64,000 bases of DNA. Origin: Xanthostigma xanthostigma (Eukaryota > Arthropoda > Insecta > Raphidioptera > Raphidiidae). Shown here one piece after another: positions 38,154 to 59,620 of this stretch. How positions within the stretch are numbered: the stretch's first letter is position 1; every line of letters begins with the position of its first letter. The stretch is taken from the NCBI GenBank assembly GCA_963575645.1, contig OY754464.1, positions 33,371,501-33,435,500 of the forward strand, written 5' to 3'. Below the pieces are notes generated by a model that saw only the letters and a program-made list of their open reading frames with translations, did no database searches and had not been told where the DNA came from. Position numbers and translations under genes: made by a program.

Positions 38154-38318
38154 TTAAGAACACCGTGGTGTGTTTCTTCTCGACGAGTCTGCAACTGATT
38201 CACACGTCGGCGTTGTGAATGAAATGTACACTTCTTGATATGGATTAGATCCGATCGCTCCAACACTCACTCGATATCGACAATCGAACTGAAGATCGTA
38301 CAGATCAAAACGAGTTGC
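38154..38318 (-). CDS. Kal1: Kal1 last exon (FnIII domain C, C-terminus)
   Basis: Acceptor TTTTACGCAG, phase 0. It encodes RFDLYDLQFDCRYRVSVGAI and then FTTPTCESVADSSRRNTPRCS followed by TAA at 38154-38156. The sequence matches the F-G strands and the C-terminal region of the third anosmin FnIII domain. Confidence 0.9.
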   Translation of the reverse strand, partial: ATRFDLYDLQFDCRYRVSVGAIGSNPYQEVYISFTTPTCESVADSSRRNTPRCS

Positions 38319-41300
38319 CTGCGTAAAATGTAAGTTATTATCATTGGCTAAGATTTTATCACAAATGAGTACAAGGTAGTGAAATCATTTGCCAAATTGG
38401 TACAAGCGAAACAATATTATTTTTATAGACATACCGTATTATTCCAAGCGGCGGACGGAAAAAATGGTTTTATAAAGAACAAAACTTTTAGAAAATATAG
38501 TACTTATGTGTACTAACTTCAATCACTTGCCTAGGCAAGCCTGCAAGGATCTGATATAGCAGGGAAACACATCGCCGTTTTTACATGACAAAGCAAGCAA
38601 ACTGAGTTGCCATTATGTTTGATCATTATTTAAGACGGCAACTATGTATATTCCTAAAAAGCTCTAATACCGATCACCAAATTCATAAAAATGAAAAGCT
38701 CAAACTCCATGGAAATAGTAACTACATCACAAGGAATACCAAAAGTGGTGTTTCGCCGCTCACGGATTAGGTTCTTGCATGGTTCACCTAGGCAAGTTAT
38801 TGTAATAAGTAGTCTTTTCATTACAAAACTGGAACCATTTTTTACAGTCGCCGCTCCCACCATATGAAGGTTAGGTATATAGTTTAGTTCGTATTGCCTG
38901 ATACATTGATGTGAAAAAAAAAATGGACCGATCGGGATCACACATTAATTTAATTTATTTGTTTGTGCTCAAATTATTTCTTGTGCGAGGTCAGTGAACA
39001 TTTATCAATACATTGGATAGTGGACTCTACAATGAGTGAGGATTCTATCCCGGGGTTCGGAAATAGAAGGGGCCTACTGTAGTGAGCCGGCCAATTAACA
39101 GATGGGCAGAAAACATAAATCGAAGGGATAGGTAGGAGGGCCTGCTAAAGATCCCGGCCTATAAAAAAAATGCAAAAGAAATGTGGCGTAAAACTATCTT
39201 TACTGACCTTATATGTTAAAAAGATATTTTGTCTATTGGAATGCTAATATCAAAAATTTAAATACTGATCTTGATAACTGGTGTGTAGAAACATACCGAA
39301 GTGGTGGCAGCTTGCTGAAGTCTGGTGGCACTCCCATCAATTTGTTTTGTCAACCCCTTACATGTCCCCGTCCACCAGGTGACTGTGTAATGTCCACGAA
39401 TTGTCGACTTCCACACTATTCTCGCCATCAATCGCTTCCTTGACCAGAATATTCGCTGCAAATGCAAATCCTCCACTTTACTGGATTTACGGCCTTTCAT
39501 GAATGGTTCATTTTCTACTGATCTTGTTGATGACTCCGAAACTGTCATTAGAAATACGTTTCGGTATAAATAATGACTATAATAACGTAAAAGAATTTAC
39601 TGATTAGTCAACAATACAGTAGTGGGGTGTTTATTGTTCAAAAACGTATAATCCGCATAATAGCTGCTATATCCAACGAGGTTTAGATACGAAGTATAAA
39701 AGTATCACTGATAGGAAAGAGAAGGCGATAAACACGGTACAATGTACATACGAGTATATTATGTAAATCTCTTTCCGGCGTTTACTTTTGGCTCTTTATC
39801 ATCGACGCGACGGGACGTTAAAAAAACTCAAACAACACGTTTTTATGAACTAAAAAATGCAATATAATTTGGCAACAAAATTAGCTTTAATAAAAAAAGC
39901 GTGGGGTGTCTGATATCAGCAGTCATACATTTTTCGCTTCTAGCTATTTGTAAAAGTAAAGCCATTATGAAAATTTAAGTAGAGAAGTGAGTTGTGCGCG
40001 CGCCTGCGAAGGTTTCTGACCCAAAAAAATTAAAGTGTATATGCACATTTTTTTATGTGGCATTGTAATACGGTGGAGCCAAAAGCTTGACTACTGCTGT
40101 CGCTGCAAATGGCGCGTAGTCTTGTGAAGCAAGACTGTAATATGGTGGAGCCGAAAGCTCCACTACTGTTATCGCTACCGTGTTCCATCTCAGTCGCGTG
40201 CTATTAATTTATATAAATTAGTTATATAAATTATAAGACTAAAAGGAAACAACCTTTTAAAGCTAGAACATATAGACGGACGAATAGACAGCATGAGCTT
40301 AGTAATACGAAACCCTAATGAACAGATAGACAAGAAAACTAGTTAATATTGAATTGTCATCCAGTTCTCAGCTATGTTGAAAGTTTCAAGTCTATCCGGG
40401 AAGTTGGTTTAAAATCAATTGCAAAATTGGTACCGAACAGACAGACAGACAATCTTGGACATTTTAAACAAAAATTATAACAACTCACTATCTGTGTCAT
40501 TTGTGGTATTCAAAACAATCGCAGCTTTTTCTCCTTTGAGGCGATCTCGTCCAAACTGAGACAGCGCTTGCACTTGTAAAAAATATTGTGAGTTTAGTTG
40601 TAAATTCTGCAGCAAAAACCATGTTTGATCCTAGAACAAATAAAATTTTTAAAAAGATGCAAATACTAAAAATTAGTGGAAATGAATTTTCCTTCCGGCA
40701 ACATAGGGAAAATTTTAAATAAACACAACATAAAAATTACAATTGTTCTGAAAAAATTTCAAGTAGTTGTGTTGAATAAAACTAAAATCCATAAGTATTG
40801 AAAATTGTTAATTATTAGCTATTAAAAAAAATTGACATTTTAAATCTAAAAATGATTTTTTATAGTGACAAATTGGACCCTGTATAATGAACAAACAGAA
40901 AAAAGTAACAGATTAATGATGAAACGGAGGAATGTGCAATAAATTACATTTTGGTAATATATAGAAATTATTAGTGTCGTGTTTTTAATTTTAAATTTTG
41001 ATTTCAAGTTGTCGCATACTGATATTCACCTTGTATACCTATTTATTTTTTTTATTTTTATTGATTATAGAGCCGCGAAGATCTTTCAAATTGGAGACGA
41101 AATGTTGGCAATAAAAATAAATATATTGTACGGACTGAAGGTACCATTTTTTTCCGTTATCATATCATCTTTAAATCACATAAGAGACACGACTACAATA
41201 TTATAACTTACTGAATTAAAAAAATGCTATTTATGTTTACCTTAGTGTGAAATTATTATTTTTTCGTTCTGTACCTCAGTATGAGTATCGACATAATATA

Positions 41301-44300
41301 TTGCATACGCTTCAGAGCTAGGGTTATCAGAATGAAAAAATAGTTTTTCGAGGAAAAATTCTGATTTCCAAGAAAATTCTCTTTCATTTATCGAACGATA
41401 GTTTAAAAGATGAGTTTAAATCAACATATAATTTTGCAGGGAATCGTAAGCTCTGTAAAATAATTGTTAACCGTTGTAATTCTATTGATAAATAATGACA
41501 AATAATTTGACTGAGGTCAATATATAGTTGCTTATCGCTGCTATATAAACTATTTTTATTTAAGCAAAATTGAATTCAAATTTTGTTAGAATCCAATTGT
41601 CTCCGTTTCTAATCGTCAATTAATTTATATATTATTGGTATAACCACGACCAAAGAATTAAGGGCTCTTTATGTTGGCATGTCTAAAAATACGTACCCGG
41701 TGTGTATTTATCTATACTAATATATAAAGCTGAAGAGTTTGTTTGTTTGGTTGAACGCGCTAATCTCAGGAACTAGGTACTAGTTCAAATTTAAAAAAAA
41801 ATTTTTTGTTGGATAGCCCATTTATTGAGGACGGCTATAGGTTATATAATATCACGCTACAACCAATAGGAGCGGAGCATCAATTAAAAATGTTGCAAAA
41901 TGTATCTCAAAAATAAGCTTCTATTCAGATGAAATGCCCTGATTAAATGTACCAATATTAGCGTTGTAGGTTTAAAAGCCCGGCCGGCTTAGTCGGTAGC
42001 GCATGCGTCTGTTAATATTAGGGTCGTGGGTTCGAGCCCCACGTAGGGCAAAAATATTTTTATTTTTTTTTTATTTTCTACATTACTTTATTCTAAGGCC
42101 TAGTTTATATGAGAGGCGTTCAACGCGCGTTGGGCCAACGTGCGTTGAACGCCTCTCATATAAACTAGGCCTAAGGCTCACATTTAAATTTATTTTAATT
42201 TTATTTACGACTAATAAAAATTAAATAAATCTAATTAATAGCTCATTTGAAAACTGTTATAACTATAGGTACCTATATAAAAAATATTTTCCTGCAGAGT
42301 TTTTAATTAAATATTTATTATATTTTATTAATTACAGTAATTATTGATTAAAAGGAATTTATTGCTTCAAAAAACTATAAATACTGCTTTTTATCGACAA
42401 AAACTATCGAACGGTAACTCCGATCATTATGAAATTTTGACACAACATTGATCTCGGTAAACTAAGATAAATGTGCGTGCTCATATCCCTCCCTTCCCCA
42501 TTCGTTCTTTTACACCCGGGTGAAACCGGGCGGGACCGCTAGTTATTTTATAAAAACCTTTAGGATTTATGTACATGGTTTCAATTTGATCAATAGTTTC
42601 AGAACGTTAGAATTTCACATGTAGCTCTAATAATACGTAAGCATTACCTGCATAACTGACAACAATAGAATATTCCTGGAACAAAGTATATAAAAAAGGA
42701 ACATATCTCAGGACGAAAATAAACAACATTATGAACGTGAAATCTATCATTGTTATCCTGTTATTTGTCACGATTCATGAATGAGCCATTATAAAAATTA
42801 ACACCCAATATCATAATGGACATCTTTTGTTTCGCGACAGTATAAAATACTGAAACATTTCACTTTTCTTTCAGTATCCATTAAAAGATCAACCGGGATA
42901 CACACAATTCGATAGAGATGGTTTGTTTTAACATTTTAAAGAATGTAAGTACATAATAATCATTTTTATTTACATTATTTTATTTTTTAAACCGCATTGA
43001 TTTTAAATTTTTCTCAGTACTATAGATGTCCGTCCGTCTTCGCACGGGTGTACTCGATTCGCTCGAATTTAAACATAATTAATAAATATATTATTACCTC
43101 GTTCGTCTGAATTCATATTTAATTAATATATATACATTATTCATTCGCTTAGCTCGCTCGCTTGACATTCTAAATAATTAATACATTACCCACTTGGTTC
43201 GCTTGTTCGCTCGAATTTATAATCAACTCACTGTGACTTATTATTATTATTGGGAATAATATATTTCACAACGCTTTTGACACTTTGATTTTAATTCATC
43301 TTGAAATCAATCTCATATGCACCCGGGCAAAACCGGGCCGAGCAGCTAGTATAATTCAGACTTTCCTCAAGAAATAAGCTATCGAATAGTGAAAATCGCT
43401 TTCAACTCTGTTCAGTACAGGGAACACAATCCAATTTTCTCCTGGGCGAAGTAGGATCGGACAGTTGTTGGAATAAAATGTAGTCTATATTATGTTAACG
43501 GAGAGTCTTAGGAACATATTGGTGGCAGTTTCATCAAAATACGTTCTGTAGTACCTATTTGAAATTAGCCCATACAAACCACACGAACGTTCCGATATAG
43601 AAAAAAACCGTATTTCTTAATGCGTATTCTGTCAGTAGTAGATTTTCCCAAACAAATTTACAGTTTTAAGGGTTCCGTAGCCAAATGGCAAAACAGAACT
43701 ATATTTCGTCATGTCCGTCTGTTTGTTCGTATGTCACAGTCTTGTAACTCTGCCATCTTTCCATCGATTCGGATGAAATTTTTTATTTGTAATATCGGAA
43801 ACAAACAAAAAACTTGAAATAAGACATGTTTATTTTAATTTTATTATAATTTTCTTTCTAGATATGCATTTTCATTAAATTGTTATTAACAATTTTCTAA
43901 TTAATGATTGTATTAAATTGTCTCATTCCGTCTTTGTGTTCCATTTGATCATCGTTTCAGCAATCTTATGGCGAAGGGGAGGGGAGGTGGTCAATGAGTA
44001 GGATAAAGCGGATTGAAGTAATATTGCAATATTTGGCTTTATTGGACTAACATAAAAAATAATACCAAAAATGTATTGGAACGTTTCCAAGAAGGAAATG
44101 GTAGAGGGAAGTCAGGTCGCATTAATTTAATATTTTAAAATCATTTTATAAAGACATAATATCACTAGCTCTTGCCAGCGACTTCACTCGACTGAAATTC
44201 GAATTTTCGATATTGCATGACCCTCCTCGCTATTTAAAATTTTGAGTTGATGATATCGTTGGCGCCAACTTTTAATTTCAAAACAAAATCTTCAAAAATG

Positions 44301-47300
44301 GTTTATGTAATAAGATTTTGTCGCAATTTTATTTGAACTCTGTAACATAATTTATTCAAAAGTGAAAAGATGGAAGGAACTCCTTAGATGCGCACTTTAC
44401 ACAAAGTAGGGGTTAGAGTACGATAACTGGTTGTGCAAAATGCAGTTCATTGGAAATAAACATTTTTTTTTTAAATACAAAATGCGCTCAGTTACAAAGG
44501 CTATATGCGCGGTTTGAAGTGCGAATGCAAGAGTAGGTGCTGAATGAAATGTAAATGGTTTGTTCAAATAATTAAAACTATCAACATATAACAGTGTTAT
44601 TAGCCGTTTGATTTTTATAAATTCATTTGGGAGGGGGGGGGAGATCTTAAAAAACAATTACAGGGTCGTGTCGATGCGATGGCGTTTTTTTTGCGCAGTG
44701 AAAATGGGGTGACGTTTGTGGGAAATTCTTTAAAAAACCATTACAGGGTTCGTGTATATAAAGTGAAATGGTAATACAGTTATTCTACACCAGTTGCTAT
44801 GACATATGTGATTTCTGATTGGTTAGATTAAAAAAATGACAGTGAAAGACGAAAAGTTTTGTCGTATTTTTTGAGGAAATTTGTGAATAATCCGCAAAGT
44901 TTTTTTTTAGAACGTCGAAATTTAGCGTTTTCTTTGACTTAAAAAAAAGTTAAAATTTGGACAGTTATCGTATTGGACCCCAAAGTAGGTATCTAGAATC
45001 TATATGTTATAAAAAGACGTACCGTTTTGGAGACACAGGTCTTTCAAGTTCGTTGTGTAATTGTTTGGATCATGACGTCACGCTTTTCGAGATAGTCAAT
45101 AAACGGTCATATAAAATTCGCTTTATAGACACGAAACAATACCAAATATGTCCAGAACGTGATGTATGTTATTATTACAGGCGAGTGAATGACATTATGT
45201 CGAAACGAGGGTCAGCAAGTTGCAACAGTCACGGGAGCCATAAAATCCTCATATCACAGATATACGTTACATTTCTTGCACGAAACTTCTATAAAATAGT
45301 TGATTTTCACTTTATTTTCAAAATTTTTCACCGTTTCATTTTGAATAAGTTCACTTCTAATAGTAAGCTGCAGCGTTTCTTTTACTTTACGCAACTTTAT
45401 ACCAGCAGAAGACTTCATTTATGTATCTGTTACGGTAAATGTAAACTCTTGGGAAATGTACACTTTAACCGTAAAATGTGCCGGAAAATGTGTACATTTG
45501 CCGCAATATCTACATTTAATGTACACATTTTACGGTAAAAGTGTACATTCCCCAAGAGTTTACATTTACCGTAACATATCCATTAAAACACCTGAGATCA
45601 AAATTGGCAGTGTGGATTTTATTTTTTGTATATTATTTTTATTTTGTACAAGTCAATCTCAGTTAAGTATATTTTTATTCTATTTTATATAATGTTATAG
45701 TGGTTAATATGGACACTGATTTTTCGTCAAGTCATGTCAATTCGCCAACTATCTCTCTCAAATAATCGCCGATGGAAGGACTTTGTACAATATAGGAGCG
45801 ATCCAGTTATAGACAACCCACAGAGCTATGAAAACAACCGCAATACTGATGACGAAAACTCTTGCAATGGCTTGAGTCAATGCGACTTCAATGAGCAGCG
45901 CCACCTTAAAATTATTCCCGCTAATCCAATATTTCCACAGAACATTTTTGTAGACGAAGTAGAAGAAATGCCAAGTAAAAGAAAACATTCGAGGCTACAT
46001 GGTTCTAATGCTGAAGATTCATCATCGGTAAGACAATTATAATTTTGCTTATCATGTTGATATTTTTAATAGTTGATCTATATTCATTTTTGTGGACATT
46101 TATTGAAAGCGAGTAGTAAACGGTTGTAAAATTATACATTTCATGGTAGGTAGGGTAAAATTACTTTATTAGACTGAAAAATGTACTTAATGGACTGTTG
46201 GAATTCTAAAAAGTATGGAACAAGAAAATAGCCGTGCCCGTATGCCACCTACCCCAACAAAACAGTAGGCACATTTTAACAGTAATAAGCTTTAGGGAAA
46301 AGTGCATCACGCTATACATGTAGAGGGCGCCATATGACCATATACAGGGTGTTCAAATCGACGTTGGCTAACATGGGTAACTTTGTTATTAGTGGAGATA
46401 AAAAGTCGGTTAAATGGACAAAGTAGTGCAGAAAATTGTGCTTATTAACGTCCCGTCAAAAAAACAATTGAAACGTGGTATTTTTGTTATGTGGAATGCA
46501 GGCGCAAAAATATCGTATTTCTTTAAATTTGAAAATGCTTGAGCCATTTAAGAGTGTCAATTAAATACAACTAATTAGCAAAATCGTAGAGATTGCTTGA
46601 CAGGTTATTAAACTGTTGGTATTCCTTGTTTCAACAAATTTTGTTTTACACGGCACAATCTGATCAGTATGGATAACGTCAAAAAGATATTTTGATCAGT
46701 TTTGTAAATTTGTTTTCGTTTAGATACCTATAGGATATAATATATCAAATTAATCAGAATAATAAGCAGAATTCGAATATCTAACAATCCAAAATGGCGT
46801 CCATAAGAAAAACCAAAGTTCATGCCAATATTTCATTATGTAGTGGATGTAAATAAAATAAAGCTATGCCACTGAAAAGACTTAAAAAGATATAAAAAAA
46901 ATCAATCATAAATAAAAAAGTTATGGCTAGTTTTCAAGAACGGCAATTTTCACTATTATCTAAATAAATTCATAGGGTGTCAAAATTCAATTGTTTTTTC
47001 GACGAGTCGTTAATGAGCACAATTTTCTGCACTACTTTGCCCATTTAACCGACTTTCTATCTCTACCCATGCTAGTCAACATCGTGTATGTGGTGGCATA
47101 CGACCACGGTTATTTTCTTGTTTCGTACATTTTAGAGCGTGATTTTGCCGTAGTCGGGTTCTAGTTTTTGAACTTCCTTTTTATTTAAAATAAAATAAGA
47201 TACCTTGGTATTATGGTATGATGAAGTTAACGGGATACAAGGCTAAATTTTAAAACAATATTTATTTAATAGCACTTCATTTAATAGTCAACGTTTCGGC

Positions 47301-50300
47301 AAACAATTATTGCCCTCTTCAGGACTTTAACTTGTGACTTTTAATAGACATTTTTAAAGTCCTGAAGAAGGCAATAATTGTTTGCCGAAACGTTGACTAT
47401 TAAATGAAGTGCTATTAAATAAATATTGTTTTAAAATTAAGCCTTTTTATTTAAATGATTTTGGGGTTATAATTTCGTGATTATTCCCAATTATCGGGTG
47501 CATGCAAGCAAAGCCACGAGCAACAGCTAAAAATATATATATTTTTAAATGTGTTAATTGAGCCCTTACGTTTGAAACCTAATACGGCATCATTAAAACA
47601 ATTTGTTTCTTAGTTTATGACTTTAAGTCCTCTAGAGGGCGCTATATTTAATTTAATGTAACGTGACATAGCCTATAACCAGCGGTAGATCTTTTTAATT
47701 GAACTCAAAATTTTTGTGGAAACAATAAAATCAAACACAAGTAAAAATTTTTTATATATTGCTCGCAAAAATCGATTTTCAAAGAAAACTGAATCCATAT
47801 ATCAACCATCTTCATTGAGATTTTCCTTAACAAAAACGATGGTTTTTTAGACAATGATCAATTACATTATCAACTTGGATGATCACGAAACTGTTCATCA
47901 TATTCTAATTGCGCGTTATTTACAGCTACTTTATAAGTGTATACTTAACATTATTTTACGAAAAAAAGTGACGAAATAACAGAATATTCGGTACACATAA
48001 TTCCTAAATTATATTTTTAGCTCAAAGACACAATATTTTTGTGACCAATGCCTAACTAATTCTCATTTGTACAAAATGCACGATTATACAATAATATACC
48101 TAATGTGATAGAATAATCGTTTTTAAAATGATAATATTTTCGAAATTGATTTTATGATCTGAACTAAAACCAATATTAAAATTACAAATTAAACTTAAAT
48201 CACTGCTGCCGAAATATATTCGCAGTTCAGTTTAAATCTAACGGGCCTTTTATAAACCACTTAGCCTTTCCCATGTAACTTTACGTGGCGTTTAAGTCTA
48301 GACCACTTTAGAGAGGGTATAGACAGCGAGAGAAGTCAATTATAACCGGAAGCCGCCATTTAAAATAAAAAATGCTAGACAGTAATTTTGATCGATTATT
48401 CGGATCATAAAAGTAATTACTAAAACTTACTTACTAGTTTTGGAGACAGCAAGTTTCATAAAATTTTTAATAATAACCATATCTAGTTTTCACTCATACC
48501 TACCATTAACATTTTTGTCGTTATTCAATTATGTCAAAAATTGCGTTGTACTGATTGCAAAAATCCATTTTATGTGCAAAAAATTATATTTATAATATGC
48601 TAAAAGAATCTCTCATTAATATAAACCAATATTTATCGCGATGGAATAAATTATTAAAAAAAAAAATATATTGTTTAATGGCAGCAGGACTATCCCTGCA
48701 GAGATTACATTTTTAAATTCTTAATATTGTAATCAGCCTTTACAACACTATTTCATTCTTCCAAAATTTTTACCATGAGCGAATACTTAACAAATTCTAA
48801 AATTTTAGCCGATAGTCCAATCAATGAATAGCTCCAAAGGGGGTGTAGAGTGCGTGAGCAGGCCCCTAAGCGATTTATTCAGAAACTTGTTCAGGGTGAT
48901 TAGGGAGTAAACATACCAAAAGTCCTGACGTTTAGGAGGTGAGCCGGAGGGAGGGTAGCACCAAGAAGGTAACACTTTTAGGGTTTCAGCTTAGGACTCA
49001 AAAACGGTACGTCGCATGGGAAAAAATTCTTATGTAAAACTAGCGGTCCCGCCCGGTTTCACCCGGGTGCAAAAGAACGAATGGGGAAGGAAGAAAAAAA
49101 ATTTAGGGGTGGACTACCCCTAACATTTAGGGGGATGAAAAATAGATGTTGGCGAAGTGACACCTGTAGACATCTGGCGGGGATAACTAATTAAATGACG
49201 ATTGATCAGTTTTCGACCGGAGAGGAAAAATGATTAAATTACTAAAATGGCTATTAAAAAATAAGGGTTGATCGTAGAAGGGTGAAAATTGAGGATTGTA
49301 TGTATTTTTGTATGTTGTATCATAAAAAAATAGAAATTAAAAATTTTGTCTAAAAAATAAAAAAAAAAATTTAGGGGTGGACTACCCCTAACATTTAGGG
49401 GGATGAAAAATAGATGTTGGTCGATTCTCATAGATACCGGATAAGCACAAAAAATTTCATCAAAATCGGTCAAGCCGTTTCGGAGGAGTATGGCAACAAA
49501 AACTGTGACACGAGAATTTTATATATTAGATTAAAGCTCATAAAATTTTATACAGCTTTTGTTCTATATACTTTTTTCAAATACACAACCGTTCTTGAGC
49601 TACACGCCCCATAAAAGTGAAAGTTTTCGAAAAAAAACTTTTACCGCATATTTTTCATCAAACAATCCGCTTCAAAATTCGGAACGTGGTTTAGAAGAAG
49701 TAAGCGGAGAAAAAGACAACTGCAGACAGCGACTCTATTTTCTAATATGTAGTCTTTGACAAAACACCGTCGTAGTTCAGCAATATTGTCAAAAATATTT
49801 ACAAATTATATACACTAACGTTCCTGATCGTTTATCGCTCTTTCCATTGATGAAAACCGTTTCAAAATCCGGAACGCGCTTTAGAAGAAGTAAGCGTAAA
49901 AAAAGACTCCCTAAGGACCCTGAACAAGTTTCTGAAGAAATCGCTTAGGGGCCTGCTCACGCACTCTACAACTTCTTTATTCACTGGACTACGATATCTT
50001 AGTTGTTTTATGGGGTACGTTTCAAACATTTTCAACTTGACGCAGCAAGTAGCCCTGGCAAATTACTTGTCAGAGTAAAGGCCATTTTGTTGATTAATTT
50101 TTCACGGAAATTTTGGAAACGCTGACATACATGTAACATGATACAAAACACAACAAAACTATGGCGTAACCATGGCAACGGATACAAATTTTAGGTAGCA
50201 TATGGAAGACATTTTAAATGGCGGCAACCGAACAGCGATCGACTGTGTGTTGGTTATACTCATATGCATGTGCTCTCTCTTAGATATGAGCGCCGATGGG

Positions 50301-53300
50301 CAAAGGAGCGGCGGCGGCGCGCCGACTTTTTGAGGTCGGCGGCGGCGGCGTAGTCGGCGGCGTGACCTTAGGAGCATTTTTAATGATGGGCAGGATACAA
50401 TAAAACAAAACATGTAGTTTAACAATCAGAATTATTATTTAACACAAATTATTTTTATAAGGAAATGGTTTCTAGCCTAGAGCTAAAATATTTTTGGCAC
50501 TTCGATTGGCAGAAAAAAATCAACGTTGTCATAAAGTTCTAATAACAATTAACAAGAAAATAAATCTTAGAAAAAACAAAGATGTTTCTTTTAAGTCATA
50601 AAAAAATATAAAGTAGTCTTTAAAAATATGTTTTCAACATTTTTAGCTTTCGTTTAAACATATGCCTTTACGGTCGGCGCGCCGTTACATTTTCACGGCG
50701 GCGGCGGCGGGGGGGAATCGTCGGCGGCGACGGCGCGCCGGCGCGGCGCTCATATCTACTCTCTCTAGACCACTTCTCCCAGTGCAGTAGCGAATCATAG
50801 TTTTTTCCGATATGTTATTGATAGTACAGTCATTTGGTGCCGATAAAAGAGGTTACCTGGAAAGTTTTCCAGAAGTTTTGAAAATTGATGATTTTATAGT
50901 TTTCAATGTGATCTTTCCAAATTTCTACTTTGCCATCTTGTATCTTTGCCGCTAGCGCCGCCATATTGAAAAAAATGGCGCCTTAAAACAATTTTTTGAC
51001 AATATCTCCTTCCCGACTCATTTTTAGAAAAATATGAATCGCGCCATTGGAAAGAATGGAAAATTTTACGAAGGAAACATGTCTAACATGTATTTTTCAC
51101 ATGAAATTCAAGCGAGCAGAAAGTTAACACAATTTGACACGCGTTGATCGCCTGTTCAGATTGCAATAGGCTTGTGAGTCCGCGCGCTGTACGGAAATGG
51201 CTGTAACCAATTGCAGATGAAAAATTATGATTTTCTTGAAGTTTTACGTGTGTTCCAAAGCATTTTGTAGCTCTAAATTGGTGCAAAGCAGAAATTCGGA
51301 AAGAGCACATCGAAATCTATAAAATCACCAATTTTCAAAACTCCCGGAAAACTTTCCAGTTTAAACTACCAAATTACTGTACCTACTATGATATCGTTAG
51401 TATAAATAGATGTACCAAACACAACACGCATTTTACTACTATTGGCGATAAAACAAGTAAAATAATAACTTGCACACCTGTAATGTAATGCAACGGTAGC
51501 TACAAAACGTAATTTAAATTCATATTTGGATTCGTACGTAAAACTATAGACTACACTTCCCTACACATAGTCCAGCAAGTCTTTTACAGGCAACCCGGTT
51601 TATGGAAAGTCCCTAATTGATTTAGGAAACTTATGCGCAATTTATTTATAGTCATAAAATTATGAAATAATAATAATAGTATAGAAGTTGTGCAACATAT
51701 TTTTTAGTACGGTGGTGTGGAAATAAAATTACCAGGAGGTTACATCCGTCCCTACTTCCAGTCGAGCCAACCGCCTCCGTGCACCTGCGGCGTTCAATAT
51801 AACCTGTTCGATCTCGGCCCGTTGTATTACCCGCGTTATTTGCCGTCCGTCAATTGCACGGGCGACCTGTGCTGGGGAAGTCTTTATCGCTGCAAAGAGA
51901 AACATTACAAGTTGCATGTGCTCAAACGAAAGGACGATGTCACAACAGCGGGCGTAGGAAGTGGAGACTTGCTGAACGATGCTCCGCCACCGGTCAATCA
52001 ACACGGACCGCAGGTACCGGAAGTGCTACGCAAGGACTGGACGTTTGCACCGTTCACGGTGACGGTTGCCTGTGAATGTACGCCATGACGACGTTCATCT
52101 TCTAATCTGTGTCCATCTGAACTTAATTATTACTAATATTACATGAACACTAACTTCGAGAGTTATCCAACTCGAATTTCTAACTATGCGTAACGTAAGC
52201 TATTTCAATGGTAATTTTTCGTGTTTTAAATAGGCGCTCTGTTGTTTCAACTTGATTGATTCCAAAAGTCGACTTCTGTTTAGAAAACTTATAATATACA
52301 AGATAGGTGTTTGTCATTTGTTAACAGTTCTAGATTGTCAAATGTTCAATATAAGATATTATTTAGCAAAATATACAGAATGTGTAAAATTCAACGCCAC
52401 ACCAGATTATTGATAAAATACACGAAAAATCGTATATTCGAATAGGCAGAAATATTAACAGGTGTATTAAGCAACTGTGGCTTGATATGGGAAATAAAAC
52501 AAAACCTGAGCAATTACATTTTTTACGACTAACAATTCCCAAATGCTAGAGTTATACGAATGTAGTGCCAGTTCATATTTTCATTTTTTAACTAGTGTTA
52601 CCGTACAAATTGTAGTATTAATGGATATTGATCGGAATATATTGTAGTAAAGTACTAACGGTACAAGCCTGGAAAATACTTACACATAATAAAGTATATA
52701 ATTCAAGTTCTAAATTCTACGCTATACCTGAGTGCGAGAGAGATGCAACTAGCTATAGAGCTTGTAACTAGTTGTGCCTCTGTCGCACTTATCAGCAGCA
52801 TGGGATTTCTGCGAATTAAAAAACAAGAGTCAAAATGAAAAAAAAATATAAAATTACTCTTGGGAATGATTGTTCAGCGCAGATGAAACAAAAAGTAAAA
52901 AATAGTAGCTGATCACAAATATACTTGTTTAACGTAGTGGAAAACAGAAAAGTGTAGATATGTATTTTCAAATTAAAAAAAAATTAATACCTACTCGAAA
53001 ACCATTGATCATTTTTGTCTCGCAATTGAACAAAAAAAATTGTTCAAACAACCGCATCTAACATGCATTTTTATGATTAGAAAACGATTTTCCAAAAATA
53101 CTGAATACGAATAATTTTTTATGCAAGTGCGCTGATTCCGCCTGAACTACTAATATCAAGCGAAGAGTGCATAAAAATAAAATAATAATTATTGGTTATA
53201 TGAATGGACGTGCATTAAATTAATTAATTAAAATTGGTTCAAGTGATTTCATATTATAGAAAAAAATGTTTCATTGGTTTCATTGTCATAAAGGCGCGGA

Positions 53301-56300
53301 AAAAGTCCGGTAATGGTCCGAAATATTCTTTGGGTAGGTTTTCGTGAAAAAAGTTTTGAACAAAAGTTGCTCAACTTAGAGGGTGAAATCGTTTGCACGC
53401 AAATCTCACCGCCTTTTGCAGGGGGTTGGGGTGAATAAAAAATTTTAAATGGTAACTTACATTTTTTTCACGAATTATGATTTTCCGAAGAGAAAAATCA
53501 AAATTTTGTTTTAAATTTTTTTATCCGAAGCTTCCCTGCAACGCTCTTGAAAATTCGTATTCCGTTATTTGAGGTTCACCTCAAACACTCGCCCATGAGG
53601 CTAAGTTCTAATATCCATCATTCTGTGGAAGAATATTTATTTTGCATATTTTCCGCAAAAATTTCGAGCGGAGATAATGTTGTCAGCTAAAATGTTTTAA
53701 GATTTTTGGAGATAACGAATTTTCGACAGCATTCATTTGGAGGTGCAGGGGAAGCTTAGGATAAAAAAACATTTTCGGACAAAAGTTTCTTCTCTTCGGA
53801 GAAACATAATCTGCGAGTAAAATTGTAGATTTCCATTTAAAACTGTAGATTCACCTCAACCCTCTGCGACGAGGTGGGGGTGAGTTTTGCCTACAGACGA
53901 TTTCATCCTCCAAGTTGAGCAAATTTTGTTCGAAACTTTTTTCACGAAAACCTACCCTTCAGGAAATTTCGGACATATATACCTAATGTGGCTATGTATT
54001 TTTATTTTAAAAATTATTCATAAATCAATGTATGTATTCATTATATTTAACTGAAAGCAGTTTGTAAGCGTGTAATCTGTTCTTTGGAGTCAGTAAAAAT
54101 ACAATTAGAAATTTATAATGTACCTACTGATAATGTAATTATTTTATATAAATATATGCCTGTTACTGTAATCAAATTAACGTTAATAAAGTATTATGCA
54201 AGAACATTCTAATACTACTTTTGTTATTCGTTCCTTGGTTTTCATTTACATGAACAATTTGTAAATAGATTTAAGAGCGATTTACCGTTAAAAAGGTTTA
54301 AAGAAAGTTAAAGTGGTAACTGCCAACAGCATGTGGAATGTTGATGGTACTAATTTAGGTCAAAATTCACTTATCAAAATTTTACAATATTTTTCGTCTT
54401 GAAGTCTCCTGAATCCAAAAAACACATTTTCGGAAAACTGTGCGTCTGCTTGTTAGTCTATTTGTCTGTGAGCACGATACACGTCAAACGGATGAACGGA
54501 TTGAAACCAAATTTTGGGAGGATGTTTGATACACAAATATGAAGAGCCCTATTATTTTTGGGGAAAGTCGGCGCATGCGCAAAAGAGATATATGCTATAT
54601 AGCGGTCCCTCCCGGTTTCACATGGGTACCATAGATTTAATTGTGCAAAATGTATTTCGATTGCGTCCCGGCGTGTGAACTAATAGTTTTGAGCAAGTTC
54701 TAACATATGTCGCTATTTGGTACTAAAACAGTTTTAGGTCGTTTGCTTCTGAGCTTAGTCTGTGAGACAGACAGGAGATCGGCTTCCTACTCCGTGGTGC
54801 TTATTGGATGAGAGGTGATAATTGATCGATTAATAATTGATAAGTTATCAACCACATTATAACAATCGAACTTTCTGTTTTCACTGGGTTTAATACATAA
54901 AAATTGACCGTTATATTGCCCTCTTGCAACCCTATTGCGCATCTGTGAATGACAGTAAAAATACTAATATCGCTATTAAAAAATAGGGGTTGGTGGTAGA
55001 ACAGTGAAAATTTAGGGTTATAAGTATTGTTTAGTGGCAAATCATAAAAAAATAAAAAAAAACGTTTGGCCAAAAAATAAAAAAAAAATCTGGAGAGGGC
55101 TACCCTTATCACCTAGGGGTATAAAAAATAGCCTAAGACCTATTCTCAGACCTACCAAGTATACAGAAAAAATTTCGTGAAAATCGGTCAAGCCGTTTCG
55201 GAGGAGTTCCATAACAAACACTGTGACACAATTTTTATATATATTGTTACGCATTGTTACCCCATAATTCTACGCCTATGGAATTTCTAGAAAACTCCAT
55301 AAAACGCTCGAAGGTCAACGAACAAACAATAAAGGCAGGTAACGGATTTCCGACCGTTAGAGGCGCCCACGCATGCAACAGAGAATGCAGGTAGTCAGCA
55401 GTGGGATATAGGAGACTCGGACGCGTGGTGAGGCAAGGGAATGGCTTCTCGAACGTTCTGGAACATACGTCAAAATCTATAAAAAGGCGGCCAGAGGAAG
55501 GGAGTCAGTCAGTTGAGTTCAGTCAGTTACAGCGTGTTAACAGCGAGTGAACGTACAGCTAACTGTTTTACATAAATTGTGCGTGTTCTGGCATTACAAT
55601 ATAAATTTTGTTACAGTATTGAGAAAATAAATATAACTCTAGTGAGTGCGGTAGTAAATAAATAACTTATACTGTGTTTGAATAGACAATTGCGCTGATA
55701 AACTCTGTGTTGTGTTTTAGTGTGAATTGAATATTTCTTTGTATATAATTCTTTATTCTTTGTTACTTAGTCTTACGTTGTATAAATTAGAACTATTAAT
55801 TTTATTTCTGTTAAAGTTACCTATACGTTTTTGTGTGTGTGTTTTTACTGTTTGTTAAACAGTTAATATCTTAAATAAATACTTTCCGCTACAGACTATA
55901 TAGCAGTTTTGTTACAATATAGATAAAGAATAGGGGTTGGTGGTAGAACGGTGAAAATTTAGGGTTATAAGTATTTTTAATGGCAAATCATAAAAAAATT
56001 TTTAAAAAAATTATTCCAAAAAATAAGATAAAAATTCTGAAGAGGGCCACCCTTATCCCCTAGGGGTATAAAAATAGCGTAAGACCTATTCTCAGTCCTA
56101 CCAAGTATACACAAAAAATTTTATAAAAATCGGTCAAGCCATTTCGGAGTAGTTGGATAACAAACACTGTGACACGAGATTTTTATATATTATAGCGGTC
56201 CCGCCCGGTTTCACCCGGGTGCAAAAGAACGAATGGGGAAGGAAGGGACATGAGTACGCACATTCATCTTAGTTTACCGAGATGAATGTTGTGTCCAAAC

Positions 56301-58416
56301 TTCATAATGATCGGCGTTACCGTTCAAAAGTTTTTGTCGTTAAAAAGCAGTATTTATACTTTTTTTAAGTAATAAAATTCTTTTAATATAATAAATATTT
56401 AATTGAAAACACTGTAAGAAATTTTTTTATATAGGTGCTTATAGTTGTAACAGTTTTCAAATTGGCTTTTAATTAGATTTATTTAATTTTAATTAGTCGT
56501 AATAAAATTTTAAAAAATTGAAATGTAAGCCTTAGAAGAAAGCAATGTAGAAAATAAAAAAAAAAAAAACATTAAAAACATATTCAATCATTGTGGGGCT
56601 CGAACCCACGACCCTGAGATTAAGAGTCGCGCACTCTACCGACTGAGCTAACCGAGCTGGTACGTGCGGCGCTAATATTGGGATATTCAGTTAAGGCATT
56701 TCACCTGAATATAAGTATATGGTGAAAAATGTTGACTGACATTCTGCAACATTTTTCATTGATTTTCCGCTCCTATTAGTCGTAGCGTGATATTATATAG
56801 CCTATAGCCTTCCTCGATAAATGGGCTATTCAACAAAAAAAAAAGTTCAATTCGAACCAGTAGTTCCTGAGATTAGCGCGTTCAAACAAACAAACAAACA
56901 AACAAACTCTTCTGTTTTATATATTAGTATAGATATAGATTTACGTATGTGATACAAACACTGGATATATGTATAAATAATAATAATCAGTAATTAGATT
57001 TTCAATCTCGATACTTGTACAACGTACATGTGCAACGTACATTTGCAACGCACATTTGCAACGCACATGTGCAACGTACATGTGCAACGTACATGTGCAA
57101 CGTACATGTGCAACGTCCATGTGCAACGTACATGTGCAACGTACATGTGCAACGTACATGTACATATTCCTGATGCGAAATAAATAAAAATATGACTTAC
57201 TTTGGGTACTGTCTGATGTCTAACCACAACTGAGTTTAATACTGTGACCGCACCTTGCAGCCGATGACTCCAAAACACCTTGTAACGCTGAATAGGCAAA
57301 TCAGATGCCGGAGGATTCCATCGCAATTCACCACATAATGATCCATTCTGTAGCCATAATGGTCCGACTGTCAAATTATTAGGAGGATCTGGTTCTCGAG
57401 GATCTAAAATTTTGCTAATTTCACTTTCGAAGTTAAAACTTTCATGATTTATTAGTTTTAAAACTTTTGTATTTTAGACCAGAGTTATCCATTAAAAAAT
57501 AGCAAGAAATAAAATAAAAATGGGTTTTTAATTTTTAGTAGCTACAAATAAATTAGCAGCCGATATCGTGTGCATCGTTTAAATATATATACCTACTATA
57601 ATATCGCCCTGCTAAAGATCGAATGATGTGTTTAAAGAAAGCTAGTGACCCACAGAAAACAATAACCTTTTTTTTTAACCAGCCTGTCTTAGCGAGTTTG
57701 ACGCCCCTGGAGATATTTTTTTAGATGCATTCACCCTTAAAAATATTTTTTTCAATGATAGATTCTCCTATTTGTTTTAGTAATTTTATGGAGTCAATTA
57801 TTAAAATCACTGCAGAATAGCTTTTGAGTATATTATGATGTTATGACGTTATGACTATTAAATAGGCATATTATGTTTAATAGGTTTGGCTTTACCAACG
57901 ATTTTGATCCGTGATTAAAAAAAAACTTTTCTTCTGTCGCTGCCCGGGCCTGGCTCCTTTAACGGCTGCCCGACCTTACCCAGTTCCCCTAAAACTGGTA
58001 CTGTCTCCATTTTCCTTACAGAAAAAACTGAAAATATTTATAAAACTTAAGATTTTTTAATAATTTACCATGCTGTGTTACGAACGGTTTAGAAGGTTCC
58101 GAATATCCCTTCGATCCATTGACACTGACCGCGGCTACACGGAATTGGTACCAGCGCCCAGGCTTCACCACTTCTCTTACAACGACTGATATTTTTGGTG
58201 TACCGCGTTGACGTACCTTCCAAGCGCCTAATCGCGAAGGTGCAAAATGTTTTCCAGCATGGTGTCGTTCCTCGACGACATATAAAACTGGGTATAAAGA
58301 AGTTGTTTCCGCGGTCTTATACAGCTGTTGCTGATTGACATTCCATCGTACGACGACGCCATTACCAGACCGGCGTCGCTCTGTTATTGTTATGTTTGTG
58401 GGTACGTCAGGCAAAT
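38154..58416 (-). CDS. Kal1: Kal1/anosmin, C-terminal part with three FnIII domains
   Basis: Anosmin is a secreted, matrix-associated adhesion protein; it acts in cell migration and axon guidance. Exons: 58069-58416, 57201-57403, 40489-40630, 39297-39541, 38154-38318, all in phase, giving 366 aa to the natural stop. FnIII domain A is one exon (RWYQFRVAAVSVNGSKGYSE); domain B is split over 57201-57403 (LRWNPPASDLPIQRYKVFW) and 40489-40630 (NSQYFLQVQALSQFG); domain C is split over the last two (WKSTIRGHYTVTWW; FDCRYRVSVGAIGSNPY). Domain borders fall at phase-1 introns and within-domain splits at phase 0, a classic FnIII pattern. Cys in the last domain (TTPTC) fits anosmin. The signal peptide, Cys-rich and WAP domains must lie beyond base 64000. 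The intron 40631-57200 is 16.6 kb and contains another gene on the other strand. Confidence 0.92.
38319..39296. other. Last Kal1 intron
   Basis: A minus-strand open frame of 95 codons (38654-38941) has no family resemblance and no ATG context or splice sites that would make it an exon. Nothing else seen. Confidence 0.5.
39297..39541 (-). CDS. Kal1: Kal1 exon (FnIII domain C, first half)
   Basis: Acceptor CTAATGACAG, donor GTATGT, phase 1 in, 0 out. It encodes a Ser/Lys-rich linker, then ARIVWKSTIRGHYTVTWWTG, strands B-C of a divergent FnIII domain. Confidence 0.85.
39542..40488. other. Kal1 intron between FnIII domains B and C
   Basis: Contains a short direct repeat near 40067-40180: GGTGGAGCC followed by AAAGCT and ACTACTGCTGTCGCT-like text occurs twice about 74 bp apart. 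No coding exon seen. Confidence 0.5.
40489..40630 (-). CDS. Kal1: Kal1 exon (FnIII domain B, second half)
   Basis: Acceptor TTCTAG, donor GTGAGT, phase 0 in, 1 out. It encodes LLQNLQLNSQYFLQVQALSQ, the E-F-G strands with the conserved Tyr. Reading past the donor would stop at 40475-40477 after four extra residues. Confidence 0.92.
41978..42050 (+). repeat. tRNA-Lys-derived sequence inside Helitron
   Basis: Exactly 73 nt with GCCCGG at the start and GGGC near the end, AGTCGGTAGC in the D arm and GTCGTGGGTTCGAGCCCCAC as the T arm, matching metazoan tRNA-Lys. Anticodon position reads GTT and the anticodon stem does not pair, so this is a relic, not a working tRNA. Confidence 0.8.
42097..42171. 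mobile_element. 75-bp perfect-hairpin MITE (TAA duplication)
   Basis: GGCCTAGTTTATATGAGAGG is followed by an almost perfect inverse ending CTATATAAAC-type arm and GGCC, flanked by TAA (42094-42096 and 42172-42174). The ends and 3-bp duplication suggest PIF/Harbinger type. It is nested in the Helitron. Confidence 0.8.
42841..42875 (+). promoter_or_regulatory. TATA box and initiator of the Trunk/PTTH-like gene
   Basis: TATAAAA at 42841-42847 and the arthropod initiator TCAGT at 42871-42875 are spaced so that the initiator A is 32 bases after the first T, the canonical distance. The predicted start codon follows 45 bases after the initiator A. Confidence 0.6.
42918..42944 (+). CDS. Trunk/PTTH-like exon 1 (start of signal peptide)
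   Basis: ATG at 42918 encodes MVCFNILKN and ends at a consensus GTAAGT donor in phase 0. Joined to exon 2 it yields a typical signal peptide, and it lies 45 bases after a TATA/initiator pair. Only nine codons, so the support is context rather than similarity. Confidence 0.6.
42918..52088 (+). CDS. Trunk/PTTH-family secreted cystine-knot ligand
   Basis: Expected to be a secreted ligand of the receptor tyrosine kinase Torso. Exons 42918-42944, 45701-46027 and 51708-52088 join in phase 0 to a 244-aa precursor. Residues 1-22 form a signal peptide with hydrophobic core WLIWTLIF. Residues about 23-142 are a pro-region with basic KRK at 102-104. The mature domain has seven Cys at 143, 145, 168, 173, 180, 240 and 242, with PPPCTCGV, DLGPLYYPRY, YRCKEKHYKLHVLKRK and FTVTVACEC, matching the PTTH/Trunk pattern including the odd seventh Cys and a sequon (NCT, 167-169) at the place PTTH is glycosylated. 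A 28-residue loop before LRKDW is longer than in lepidopteran PTTH. Whether it is Trunk or PTTH cannot be settled here. The gene lies wholly within a Kal1 intron on the opposite strand. Confidence 0.85.
42960..43347 (+). mobile_element. Decayed Helitron-like copy (3' end)
   Basis: Ends CACCCGGGCAAAACCGGGC then CAGCTAGT, the Helitron 3' hairpin and CTAG. Upstream (43020-43230) three roughly 60-bp units with TTCGCTCG and AATTAATAxATTA text recur imperfectly. The 5' end is not clear. It lies in the first intron of the Trunk/PTTH-like gene. Confidence 0.5.
45429..45575. mobile_element. 147-bp hairpin MITE
   Basis: GTTACGGTAAATGTAAACTC at the left end is repeated inverted at the right end, with arms of about 65 bp. 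It ends 125 bases before the acceptor of exon 2 of the Trunk/PTTH-like gene. No clear target duplication. Confidence 0.7.
45701..46027 (+). CDS. Trunk/PTTH-like exon 2 (signal core and pro-region)
   Basis: Acceptor TAATGTTATAG, donor GTAAGA, 109 codons in phase 0 at both ends. It encodes WLIWTLIF, then a polar pro-region with two Cys (64, 70), NPIFPQNIFVDEVEE and basic KRKHSR. An ATG at 45734 could serve as start if exon 1 is wrong, but then the hydrophobic core would be lost. Confidence 0.72.
46206..47134. mobile_element. Foldback/TIR element, ~930 bp
   Basis: Outer arms (AACAAGAAAATA...GTATGCCACC) and inner arms (AAGTCGGTTAAATGGxCAAA, GTAGTGCAGAAAATTGTGC) are both inverted between 46206-46480 and 46970-47134. 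CAGGGTGTTCAAATCG near 46347 looks like a TIR end. No transposase seen. Confidence 0.65.
47241..47443. repeat. Hairpin with two head-to-head hammerhead-like cores
   Basis: Arms of about 90 bp surround a 30-bp spacer. Plus strand: CTGAAGA (47362-47368), stem GGCAA/TTGCC (47370-47374/47382-47386), GAAAC (47387-47391). Minus strand: CTGAAGA (complement of 47316-47322), the same stem, GAAAC (complement of 47293-47297). This is the CUGANGA-stem II-GAAAC order of hammerhead ribozymes; a clear stem III and cleavage triplet were not established. Similar motifs are known in Penelope-like retroelements. Confidence 0.6.
48838..49972. mobile_element. TIR element interrupted by a Helitron
   Basis: About 70-bp inverted ends: TGTAGAGTGCGTGAGCAGGC at the left recurs inverted near 49955-49970, with CTTGTTCAGGGT also inverted. 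A Helitron occupies 49040-49530, so the TIR element is the older insertion. No transposase recognised. Confidence 0.7.
49040..49530 (-). mobile_element. Non-autonomous Helitron (short family)
   Basis: On the minus strand it starts TCTAATATATAAAATTCTCG after A and ends ...GGGCGGGACCGCTAG before T, with the same CCCGGGTGAAACCGGG hairpin end as the longer family. It shares CGGCTTGACCGATTTTGATG with copies at 54600-55244 and 55921-56191. Confidence 0.85.
50281..50758. mobile_element. GC-rich hAT element with CTCTCTCT duplication
   Basis: Ends TAGATATGAGCGCCG and inverse CGGCGCTCATATCTA, flanked by CTCTCTCT on each side (50273-50280, 50759-50766). The ends are packed with GCGGCGGCG repeats, strikingly GC-rich in this AT-rich region. 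The interior is AT-rich and non-coding. Confidence 0.85.
50821..51385. mobile_element. TIR element upstream of ligand exon 3
   Basis: Inverted ends of about 60 bp: GTACAGTCATTTGGT and CTGGAAAGTTTTCCAGAAGT at the left recur inverted at 51330-51385. The interior contains GCCGCCATATTG. It ends about 320 bases before exon 3 of the Trunk/PTTH-like gene. Confidence 0.65.
51708..52088 (+). CDS. Trunk/PTTH-like exon 3 (cystine-knot domain, stop)
   Basis: Acceptor ATATTTTTTAG, phase 0; ends at TGA 52086-52088. It encodes all seven conserved cysteines and the diagnostic PPPCTC, DLGP, PRY, CKEK-Y, VLKRK and VACEC motifs. The first codons YGGVEIKLPGGY come before the first Cys. Local GC content is clearly higher than the flanks. 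Confidence 0.93.
   Translation, partial: YGGVEIKLPGGYIRPYFQSSQPPPCTCGVQYNLFDLGPLYYPRYLPSVNCTGDLCWGSLYRCKEKHYKLHVLKRKDDVTTAGVGSGDLLNDAPPPVNQHGPQVPEVLRKDWTFAPFTVTVACECTP
52089..53315. other. Region downstream of the ligand gene
   Basis: Presumed 3' UTR and flank. AATAAA hexamers on the plus strand occur near 52493 and 52689; either could be the polyadenylation signal. A short inverted repeat (GCGAGAGAGATGCAACTAG near 52734 and CTAGTTGTGCCTCTGTCGC near 52770) lies just after the second. No exon seen. Confidence 0.4.
53316..53974. mobile_element. Foldback element, ~660 bp
   Basis: Left GTAGGTTTTCGTGAAAAAAG and AGGGTGAAATCGT recur inverted at the right end (53880-53974), with further inverted pairing inside. 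No coding capacity and no clear target duplication. Confidence 0.7.
54350..54560 (+). repeat. Dispersed repeat shared with 10725-12650
   Basis: TACTAATTTAGGTCAAAATT... and GGATTGAAACCAAATTTTGG recur, with small changes, at 10725-10850 and inside the duplicated unit near 11985 and 12630. The two places are over 40 kb apart, so this is a dispersed family, probably a non-LTR or Helitron-like repeat. Confidence 0.6.
54600..55244 (-). mobile_element. Helitron copy, short family, degenerate
   Basis: On the plus strand it starts AGCGGTCCCTCCCGGTTTCA (complement of the Helitron 3' end) and runs to CTGTGACACAATTTTTATAT next to the LTR, sharing AAATCGGTCAAGCCGTTTCG with the other copies. Confidence 0.7.
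55245..55916 (+). mobile_element. Solo LTR (Gypsy-type) with ATAT duplication
   Basis: A 672-bp segment starting TGTTAC and ending GTTACA, flanked by ATAT at both sides (55241-55244, 55917-55920); the 4-bp duplication is typical of Gypsy elements. Within it TATAAAAA (55478-55485) is followed about 30 bases later by TCAGTCAGTT, a TATA/initiator promoter, and AATAAA-like signals near 55627 and 55658. No internal retroelement genes adjoin it, so it is a recombined solo LTR. Confidence 0.85.
55921..56191 (-). mobile_element. Helitron copy, short family, 3' truncated
   Basis: Shares AATAGGGGTTGGTGGTAGAA and GGTCAAGCCATTTCGGAG with the copy at 54600-55244 in the same orientation, and ends TTTTTATATATTA directly at the next Helitron. 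Its 3' hairpin end is missing. Confidence 0.7.
56192..56933 (-). mobile_element. Non-autonomous Helitron with tRNA-Lys-derived module (second copy)
   Basis: On the minus strand it starts TCTATACTAATATATAAAAC and ends with the CCCGGGTGAAACCGGGCGGG hairpin; the 3' terminus reads CTAT rather than CTAG. The tRNA-like module (56583-56660, complement) is about 270 bp from the 5' end, as in the copy at 41711-42542, so the module belongs to the family. Confidence 0.85.
56583..56660 (-). repeat. tRNA-Lys-derived sequence inside Helitron
   Basis: Minus strand shows GGTTAGCTCAGTCGGTAGAG, an anticodon loop with CTCTTAATC as in tRNA-Lys(CTT), and GGGTCGTGGGTTCGAGCCCC. The acceptor stem does not pair, so it is a relic. 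Confidence 0.8.
57015..57163. repeat. 13-bp minisatellite in Kal1 intron
   Basis: About eleven copies of ATGTGCAACGTAC with few substitutions, 40 bases from the donor of the Kal1 exon 57201-57403. Because 39 bases (three units) is a multiple of three, one strand gives a periodic open frame, which is not a gene. Confidence 0.9.
57201..57403 (-). CDS. Kal1: Kal1 exon (FnIII domain B, first half)
   Basis: Acceptor AATTTTAG, donor GTAAGT. It encodes PREPDPPNNLTVGPLW and LRWNPPASDLPIQRYKVFW, strands A-C' of an FnIII domain. Phase 1 in, 0 out; the split codon makes Asp. The following intron is 16.6 kb. Confidence 0.94.
58069..58416 (-). CDS. Kal1: Kal1 exon (FnIII domain A)
   Basis: Acceptor ATGTTTCAG, donor GTAAAT, phase 1 in and out. 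It encodes LPDVPTNITITERRR, a long loop, then RWYQFRVAAVSVNGSKGYSE. It contains an N-glycosylation sequon (NIT). Confidence 0.93.
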
Positions 58417-58560: not shown

Positions 58561-59620
58561 CGTTAGTCTGTTAGTGCCTTATGCTATTAAAATTTCAGCG
58601 TTAGTATCGTAAAATTGTAGCTAGATGGGGCTTCCGTAAAAACTACTTTTAAATTTTTTAACGCCAATCGTTAGTGACGAATACGTGTCGTGTGTTGTTA
58701 AATTTTCAGTGTAAGTGCCGGAAAATTGTAGAAAATATGGATGGTTTTCGGTGTCCCATTCAACTTGACGTAAAGCTAGATGGTACTTCCGCAAAAAAAC
58801 GATTTTAACATTTTTTAACGCCAATCGTTAGTGATGCATCAGTGTCGTGTACTGTTAAAATTTCAGTATTAGTGACCGAAAATTGTGGAAAATATGGAGG
58901 GTTTCTGGTATCCTATCCAACTTGACGTCAAGATAAATGGGACATCCCTTAAAAAACGACTTTTTAAAACTTTTTCAACGCCAATCGTTAGTGCTGCGTT
59001 AGTGTCGTATATTTTTAAAGTTTCAGCATTAGTGCCGGAAAATTGTGGAAATATGGAGGGTTTCTGATATCCCATCCAACTTAACGTCAAGCTATGATGG
59101 GGCACCTCTTAAAAAACTACTTTTAAAAATTTTTGACGTTGATCGCAAATGCTACGTTGGTGTGGTATACTGTTAAAACTTTAGCATAAGTGCCGGAAAA
59201 TTGTGGGAAAAAAGTAGACCAAGCTGGATGGGACACCAGCAACCCTCTATTTTTTCTACAATTTTCTGATACTACCGCTAAAATCTTAACAGGGTACGGT
59301 ACTAATGCAGCATTAACGATTAGAGTTAAATTTTTTTAAAGGGATGTTCCATCAAGCTTGAAGTCACGTTGAATGAAGCTAGTATTAAAATGATAACAGT
59401 ACACGGGAAAAAAGTACGGAAGTTGTTTTTTTTTTTTTTGGGTGTCCCATTCAGCTTGACGTCAAGCTGGATGGAATGCTAACAATTGTCTCTATTTCCC
59501 ATAATTTTCCGACATTAACACTGAACTTTAAACAGTATAAAGCACTAACGCAGCAATAACGACTGGCGTCAAAAAAATTGTTTTTTAATGTTGTCCTATC
59601 TTGACGCACATGAAACAAAG
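58561..59620. repeat. ~158-bp tandem repeat with strand switch
   Basis: Marker ACGCCAATCGTTAGTG recurs at 58661, 58818, 58978 and, degenerate, 59136, giving a period near 158. Each unit carries GTGCCGGAAAATTGTGGAAA and CATCCAACTTGACGTCAAGC. From about 59217 to 59620 the same motifs appear on the other strand (for example CAGCTTGACGTCAAGCTGGA, a palindrome at the switch region). It lies in a Kal1 intron. Confidence 0.85.

Follow-up and report, generated by a model that had tools for sequence, protein, structure and literature searches.

In the insect Xanthostigma xanthostigma (Raphidioptera: Raphidiidae), we find what is probably a gene for a ligand of the receptor kinase Torso, nested in antisense orientation within one intron of Kal1, the gene for anosmin-1. 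The window analysed is a stretch of 64,000 nucleotides, positions 33,371,501-33,435,500 on an 84.2-Mb contig of assembly GCA_963575645.1 (623 Mb in 28 contigs; 12 of the 20 contigs listed exceed 20 Mb); coordinates above 64,000 continue the window numbering beyond its edge. According to the gene models of the two strands, which were built in this single genome from splice sites, reading phase and protein matches, a ligand gene with introns of its own would lie wholly within a 16.6-kb intron of a Kal1 gene of about 90 kb. At the level of sequence, what is established is how each gene is built, how the two interlock and to which family the last ligand exon is related; ligand exons 1 and 2 are putative. 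An independent Torso-type ligand gene, neutrally nested antisense in a Kal1 intron, is in our judgement very probably the best explanation overall.

The host gene lies on the minus strand, and five of its coding exons fall in the window. The first FN3 domain is encoded at 58069..58416 (phase 1 on entry and on exit; anosmin-1 tblastn E 4.3e-11), the first part of the second FN3 domain at 57201..57403 (AG acceptor, GT donor; E 6.2e-4) and the remainder of that domain at 40489..40630 (E 0.002 with a long query and 1.1e-4 with a half-domain query). The C-terminal FN3-like region at 39297..39541 and the last coding exon at 38154..38318, which includes the stop codon, are placed by splice sites and phase; in the joined protein the former is collinear with anosmin-1 and the latter shares in the match. 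Acceptor and donor sites are present in all five, their phases are consistent, and their product of 366 amino acids is collinear with residues 186-508 of human anosmin-1 (1zlg_A; E 6.7e-41). The tblastn searches with anosmin-1 queries covered six frames of 192.8 kb around the locus, in which the long query picks up, at E 4.3e-11 to 0.002, the WAP exon described below, that of the first FN3 domain and the two that make up the second.

The hosting intron (40631..57200, minus strand, 16,570 bp) splits the second FN3 domain in phase 0, with a donor GTAAGT ending at 57200 and an acceptor TTCTAG at 40631. Across the 57201/40630 join the protein reads VRHQTVPK followed by DQTWFLLQNLQLNSQYFLQVQAL, and the alignment with human anosmin-1 is free of gaps at the junction. 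Joining 57201-57403 to 40489-40630 yields a Pfam fn3 match running through the junction (E 7.6e-8), and the second half of the human second FN3 domain has its sole significant place in the 192.8 kb at 40627-40502 of the minus strand (E 1.1e-4; the next place has E 3.2). A first-pass annotation had named these two exons as neighbours in the Kal1 transcript. Its coordinates proved exact, down to the AG and GT sites and the phase-0 join, and the proposed splice is supported by the continuous anosmin-1 alignment and by an FN3 completion that is unique in the region searched. The Kal1 transcript would be spliced past the ligand gene.

Upstream, Kal1 continues beyond the window on the same strand. 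A WAP exon, recognised by its WAP pattern, lies about 21 kb past the edge (85161-85359), and its donor phase fits the exon that begins at 58416; a likely first exon, signal-like in character, lies about 64 kb past the edge (127845-128060) and joins the WAP exon in phase without an intervening exon. Between 85.4 and 127.9 kb one regular expression found no further cysteine-rich exon, and a small exon may be missed by it. The extended product of 505 amino acids matches Pfam WAP (E 5.1e-9) and fn3 (E 7.3e-16) as well as anosmin-1 (1zlg_A; E 1.1e-51), with the WAP domain followed by FN3 domains in an order collinear with anosmin-1, and the gene is predicted to span about 90 kb. The first exon is the weakest part of this model, as the anosmin-1 match starts only near its end. 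Throughout the assembly the anosmin search returned five exon matches of one Kal1 locus and none other at E <=0.001 (ten candidates scored). The objection that the Kal1 exons might belong to two separate genes finds no support, since the WAP exon and the likely first exon continue the frame into this single anosmin-like product. A cysteine-rich start, a WAP domain, two FN3 domains and an FN3-like C-terminus are common to this gene and anosmin-1/DmKal-1 (fly description in PMC1629024; here and below, papers are cited from the parts of their text that were accessible). Human anosmin-1 has four FN3 repeats (PMC1629024), whereas two clear ones and a weak third region are found here, and its long introns and extent of some 90 kb set the gene apart from the compared anosmin-1/DmKal-1 description. 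Two tandem arrays lie in Kal1 introns: one of 13 bp, TACATGTGCAACG, in 11.5 copies at 57012-57161, just within the hosting intron past the donor at 57200, and one of 157 bp in 3.8 copies at 58619-59211 in the neighbouring intron. The Kal1 frame stays open across the 13-bp array to about 56997, so that a retained intron would add a repetitive tail rich in cysteine and histidine.

The ligand gene is modelled on the plus strand as three exons, in phase 0 throughout, encoding 244 amino acids. A putative TATA box (TATAAA, 42841..42846) stands 30 bp ahead of an initiator-like TCAGT (42871..42875), which from this spacing would be the transcription start; position 42841 is the start of the TATA box, not of an exon. 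The coding part of exon 1 is tentative (42918..42944, MVCFNILKN) and runs from an ATG to a phase-0 donor GTAAGT. Exon 2 (45701..46027), delimited by splice sites, holds the rest of the putative signal sequence and the pro-region, and exon 3 (51708..52088), identified by its phmmer match to Bombyx PTTH and its seven cysteines, carries the cystine-knot domain and the stop codon. The first AATAAA/ATTAAA after the stop, a predicted poly(A) signal, is at 52493..52498, with others at 52688, 52815 and beyond. The coding model as a whole (42918-52088, with its tentative exon 1) lies inside the Kal1 intron 40631-57200, together with the stop codon and the poly(A) signals. The earlier claim that three ligand exons and their promoter sit between the two Kal1 exons on the opposite strand, both models being internally in phase, was confirmed in its coordinates, and gene models and homology together support nesting in a single intron of one Kal1 gene. 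The ligand gene would form an independent transcription unit, having a TATA/initiator promoter, presumably in use, and poly(A) signals of its own; because it has introns, it is not a processed retrocopy.

Two comparisons bear on the upstream part of this model. TATA/TCAGT pairs alone occur four times on the plus strand (two of them sharing one TATA box) and not on the minus strand, against 0.6 expected per strand, and the combination of TATA box, initiator, ATG and phase-0 donor has a single plus-strand instance and none on the minus strand, chance predicting 0.05 per strand; these expectations derive from 40 first-order Markov sequences, in a test designed after the site had been seen. Of 131 other open reading frames of at least 80 amino acids, 5 have a higher codon score than exon 2, which lends it modest support; the comparison set excludes frames that run into any of ten intervals listed around known genes and elements. 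The score was trained on 1,723 codons from the Kal1 exons and the stop-to-stop frames of neighbouring ATG16, zinc-finger and ZP-like genes, and the training set is not clean, as it includes a frame (29235-29789) without a Pfam match.

The identity of the ligand is read from exon 3. In a single-sequence phmmer search it matches Bombyx PTTH (chain 5aoq_L) at E 1.2e-7, with about 35% identity, and its seven cysteines follow the Bombyx PTTH order: six align exactly and the other is one residue out of register. Cysteines of the Trunk/PTTH family comprise six that form the knot and one for the dimer bond (PMC11121662), and six knot cysteines plus one are what exon 3 contains. It has the same PPCTC-x7-DLG-x4-PR core and VAC-x-CT end as Trunk/PTTH, and likewise a C-terminal knot behind a presumed pro-region. 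Unlike Bombyx PTTH it has a longer insert before the last strand, and the coding sequence of planthopper PTTH is a single exon (PMC11121662) whereas that of the ligand gene is three. The Trunk/PTTH-type identity given in the first-pass annotation is borne out by the PTTH match and the cysteines, and the gene probably encodes a Torso ligand of the Trunk/PTTH family, be it Trunk or PTTH. Its product, hydrophobic at its start as judged by eye, would be a pre-pro-protein, presumably secreted, whose C-terminal cystine knot would dimerise and activate Torso. Trunk and PTTH are each able to activate this receptor (PMC6303783), and in Tribolium PTTH times metamorphosis while Trunk promotes growth (PMC10703416). 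PMC6303783 and PMC10703416 differ on whether the two split at the holometabolous base or in the ancestor of Hemiptera and Holometabola; a subfamily name for the ligand should therefore wait for a tree.

Within the assembly the exon 3 query matches only itself at E <=0.001, and a query with the core of exon 3 matches only itself up to E 10. Bombyx PTTH finds the ligand gene (E 4.5e-4) and one unrelated place (C1:22353371, E 9.1), which was rejected by eye as it is without the C-x-C, DLG and C-K motifs. No second Trunk/PTTH-type gene was detected in the assembly, with one or two candidates scored per search, and a knot split by an intron could be missed.

Several observations weigh against an intact nested Torso ligand gene. 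Exon 1 comprises nine codons only and rests on promoter logic, while exon 2 rests on splice sites and an ordinary codon score, no homology being shown for it. By eye no clear furin site (RxxR) was found in the pro-region, which has basic pairs only. Pfam returned no family for the ligand up to E 1, and the single-sequence structure model of exon 3 is uninformative, with a predicted local distance difference test score (pLDDT) of 44. In the host gene, the first exon and the two last have no tblastn match of their own up to E 10 in the 192.8 kb and depend on phase and the joined protein. As for the pathway, MACPF (Torso-like) gave no match in the assembly, in an exon-by-exon search that may miss it, and Torso itself was not searched for.

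The lack of homology support for exons 1 and 2, together with the five frames that outscore exon 2, would suit a situation in which exon 3 alone is real, be it a relic, a shorter gene or a gene with upstream exons in another place; should these lie beyond the intron, the two genes would overlap rather than nest. We consider this unlikely, given that exon 3 is fully open with its seven cysteines, that all three exons share one phase and consensus splice sites, and that a promoter followed by a phase-0 exon is rarely met by chance, as the Markov sequences indicate. Another alternative concerns identity: instead of a Trunk/PTTH ligand, the product could be a divergent Noggin-like protein, with BMP signalling as its possible target. 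Trunk and PTTH are related to Noggin and Noggin-like proteins, a Noggin-like protein of the pea aphid has a role in both pathways (PMC9071555), and a two-sequence profile reaches noggin at E 0.09, the comparison having been made with solved noggin only. That profile contains PTTH, and its own PTTH score is circular and was not used as evidence. The single-sequence search, by contrast, retrieves PTTH and gives no noggin up to E 10, the V-x-V-A-C-x-C-T of the ligand C-terminus agrees with PTTH, and the ligand did not prove closer to solved noggin than to PTTH. A Noggin-like identity thus appears very unlikely.

A further alternative is that the arrangement itself has a function. Antisense interference or common intron enhancers might render expression of the two genes exclusive or coupled, and selection might then have kept them together. 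In C. elegans neurons, one nested gene induces its host, and the opposite-nested pairs of that species have a mean co-expression below that of neighbouring pairs, although some are strongly co-expressed (PMC12274878). Drosophila kal-1 is expressed during morphogenesis of the embryo and in gonadal precursors of the male (PMC1629024), which makes an overlap in tissue with Trunk or PTTH conceivable. Against this stand 752 host-nested pairs of D. melanogaster without significant expression correlation (cited in PMC3786989) and host-nested relations that are conserved across Drosophilidae in 20-34% of cases (PMC3786989). From this base rate in the fly and from the C. elegans pairs, coupling is not to be assumed, and we regard nesting with a regulatory role as improbable. 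Nothing in the window sequence ties Kal1 to Trunk or PTTH roles. In D. melanogaster, trunk and Kal1 are on different chromosome arms.

Neutral nesting is the most likely account, in which a long Kal1 intron would host an unrelated gene with at most a mild avoidance of simultaneous transcription. Nested genes amount to about 6% of genes in D. melanogaster, mostly in introns and frequently antisense, and to about 2.1% in C. elegans (PMC3786989); for the latter, 567 opposite-nested pairs of protein genes, 5% of protein-coding genes, are given in PMC12274878. Drosophila 2mit within timeless2 is likewise a multi-exon protein gene in opposite orientation within an unrelated host intron (PMC3786989); its conservation across fly species is shown there, whereas the ligand/Kal1 nesting was examined in one genome. 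A literature search for a nested Trunk/PTTH and Kal1 pair, judged from titles and the beginnings of abstracts, found none.

The hosting intron and its edges contain six pairs of inverted repeats of at least 25 bp within 400 bp. In three of the pairs the arms measure 41-92 bp and are 92-98% complementary. These three fold-back repeats lie around the ligand exons (47239-47445, 92-bp arms, 98% complementary; 45418-45586, 63-bp arms, 92%; 42093-42175, 41-bp arms, 95%), the last of them about 670 bp before the ligand TATA box. The inverted repeats are consistent with enlargement of the Kal1 intron by mobile elements. An open reading frame of 194 amino acids at 44954-45538 shares part of its length with an inverted repeat and, at a cut-off of E 0.01, matches no Pfam family; it was set aside. 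Elements that resemble tRNAs and by eye look like short interspersed elements occur at about 41981-42050 and 56590-56670; ARAGORN called no tRNA in the window. Elsewhere on the minus strand are exons of the autophagy gene ATG16 (5726-9652; Pfam ATG16 E 4.9e-13 and 3.2e-9, a third piece being below the cut-off; PDB ATG16-1 E 1.2e-6) and of a C2H2 zinc-finger gene (21958-27294; zf-C2H2 E 1.2e-8 at 27079-27294, weaker at 21958-22422). To the left of the window, at a distance of about 11.3 to 9.8 kb, the plus strand has two open reading frames of 271 and 194 amino acids that resemble a ZP-domain protein.

In the most far-reaching reading, the ligand would be the sole Trunk/PTTH-type Torso ligand of the animal, and selection would have held it at an old place in Kal1 because transcribing either gene silences its partner, which would tie Torso signalling to anosmin expression; we think this extremely improbable. 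Beyond annotation and a marker, the pair would be an ordinary one, as intron-nested genes are common. The analysis provides corrected, testable models of both genes, the probable Torso ligand and its Kal1 host, and knock-outs or enhancer tests of either gene would have to allow for the other. The position of the ligand between the two exons of the second FN3 domain of Kal1 is a clear synteny marker, for which any insect genome can be examined.

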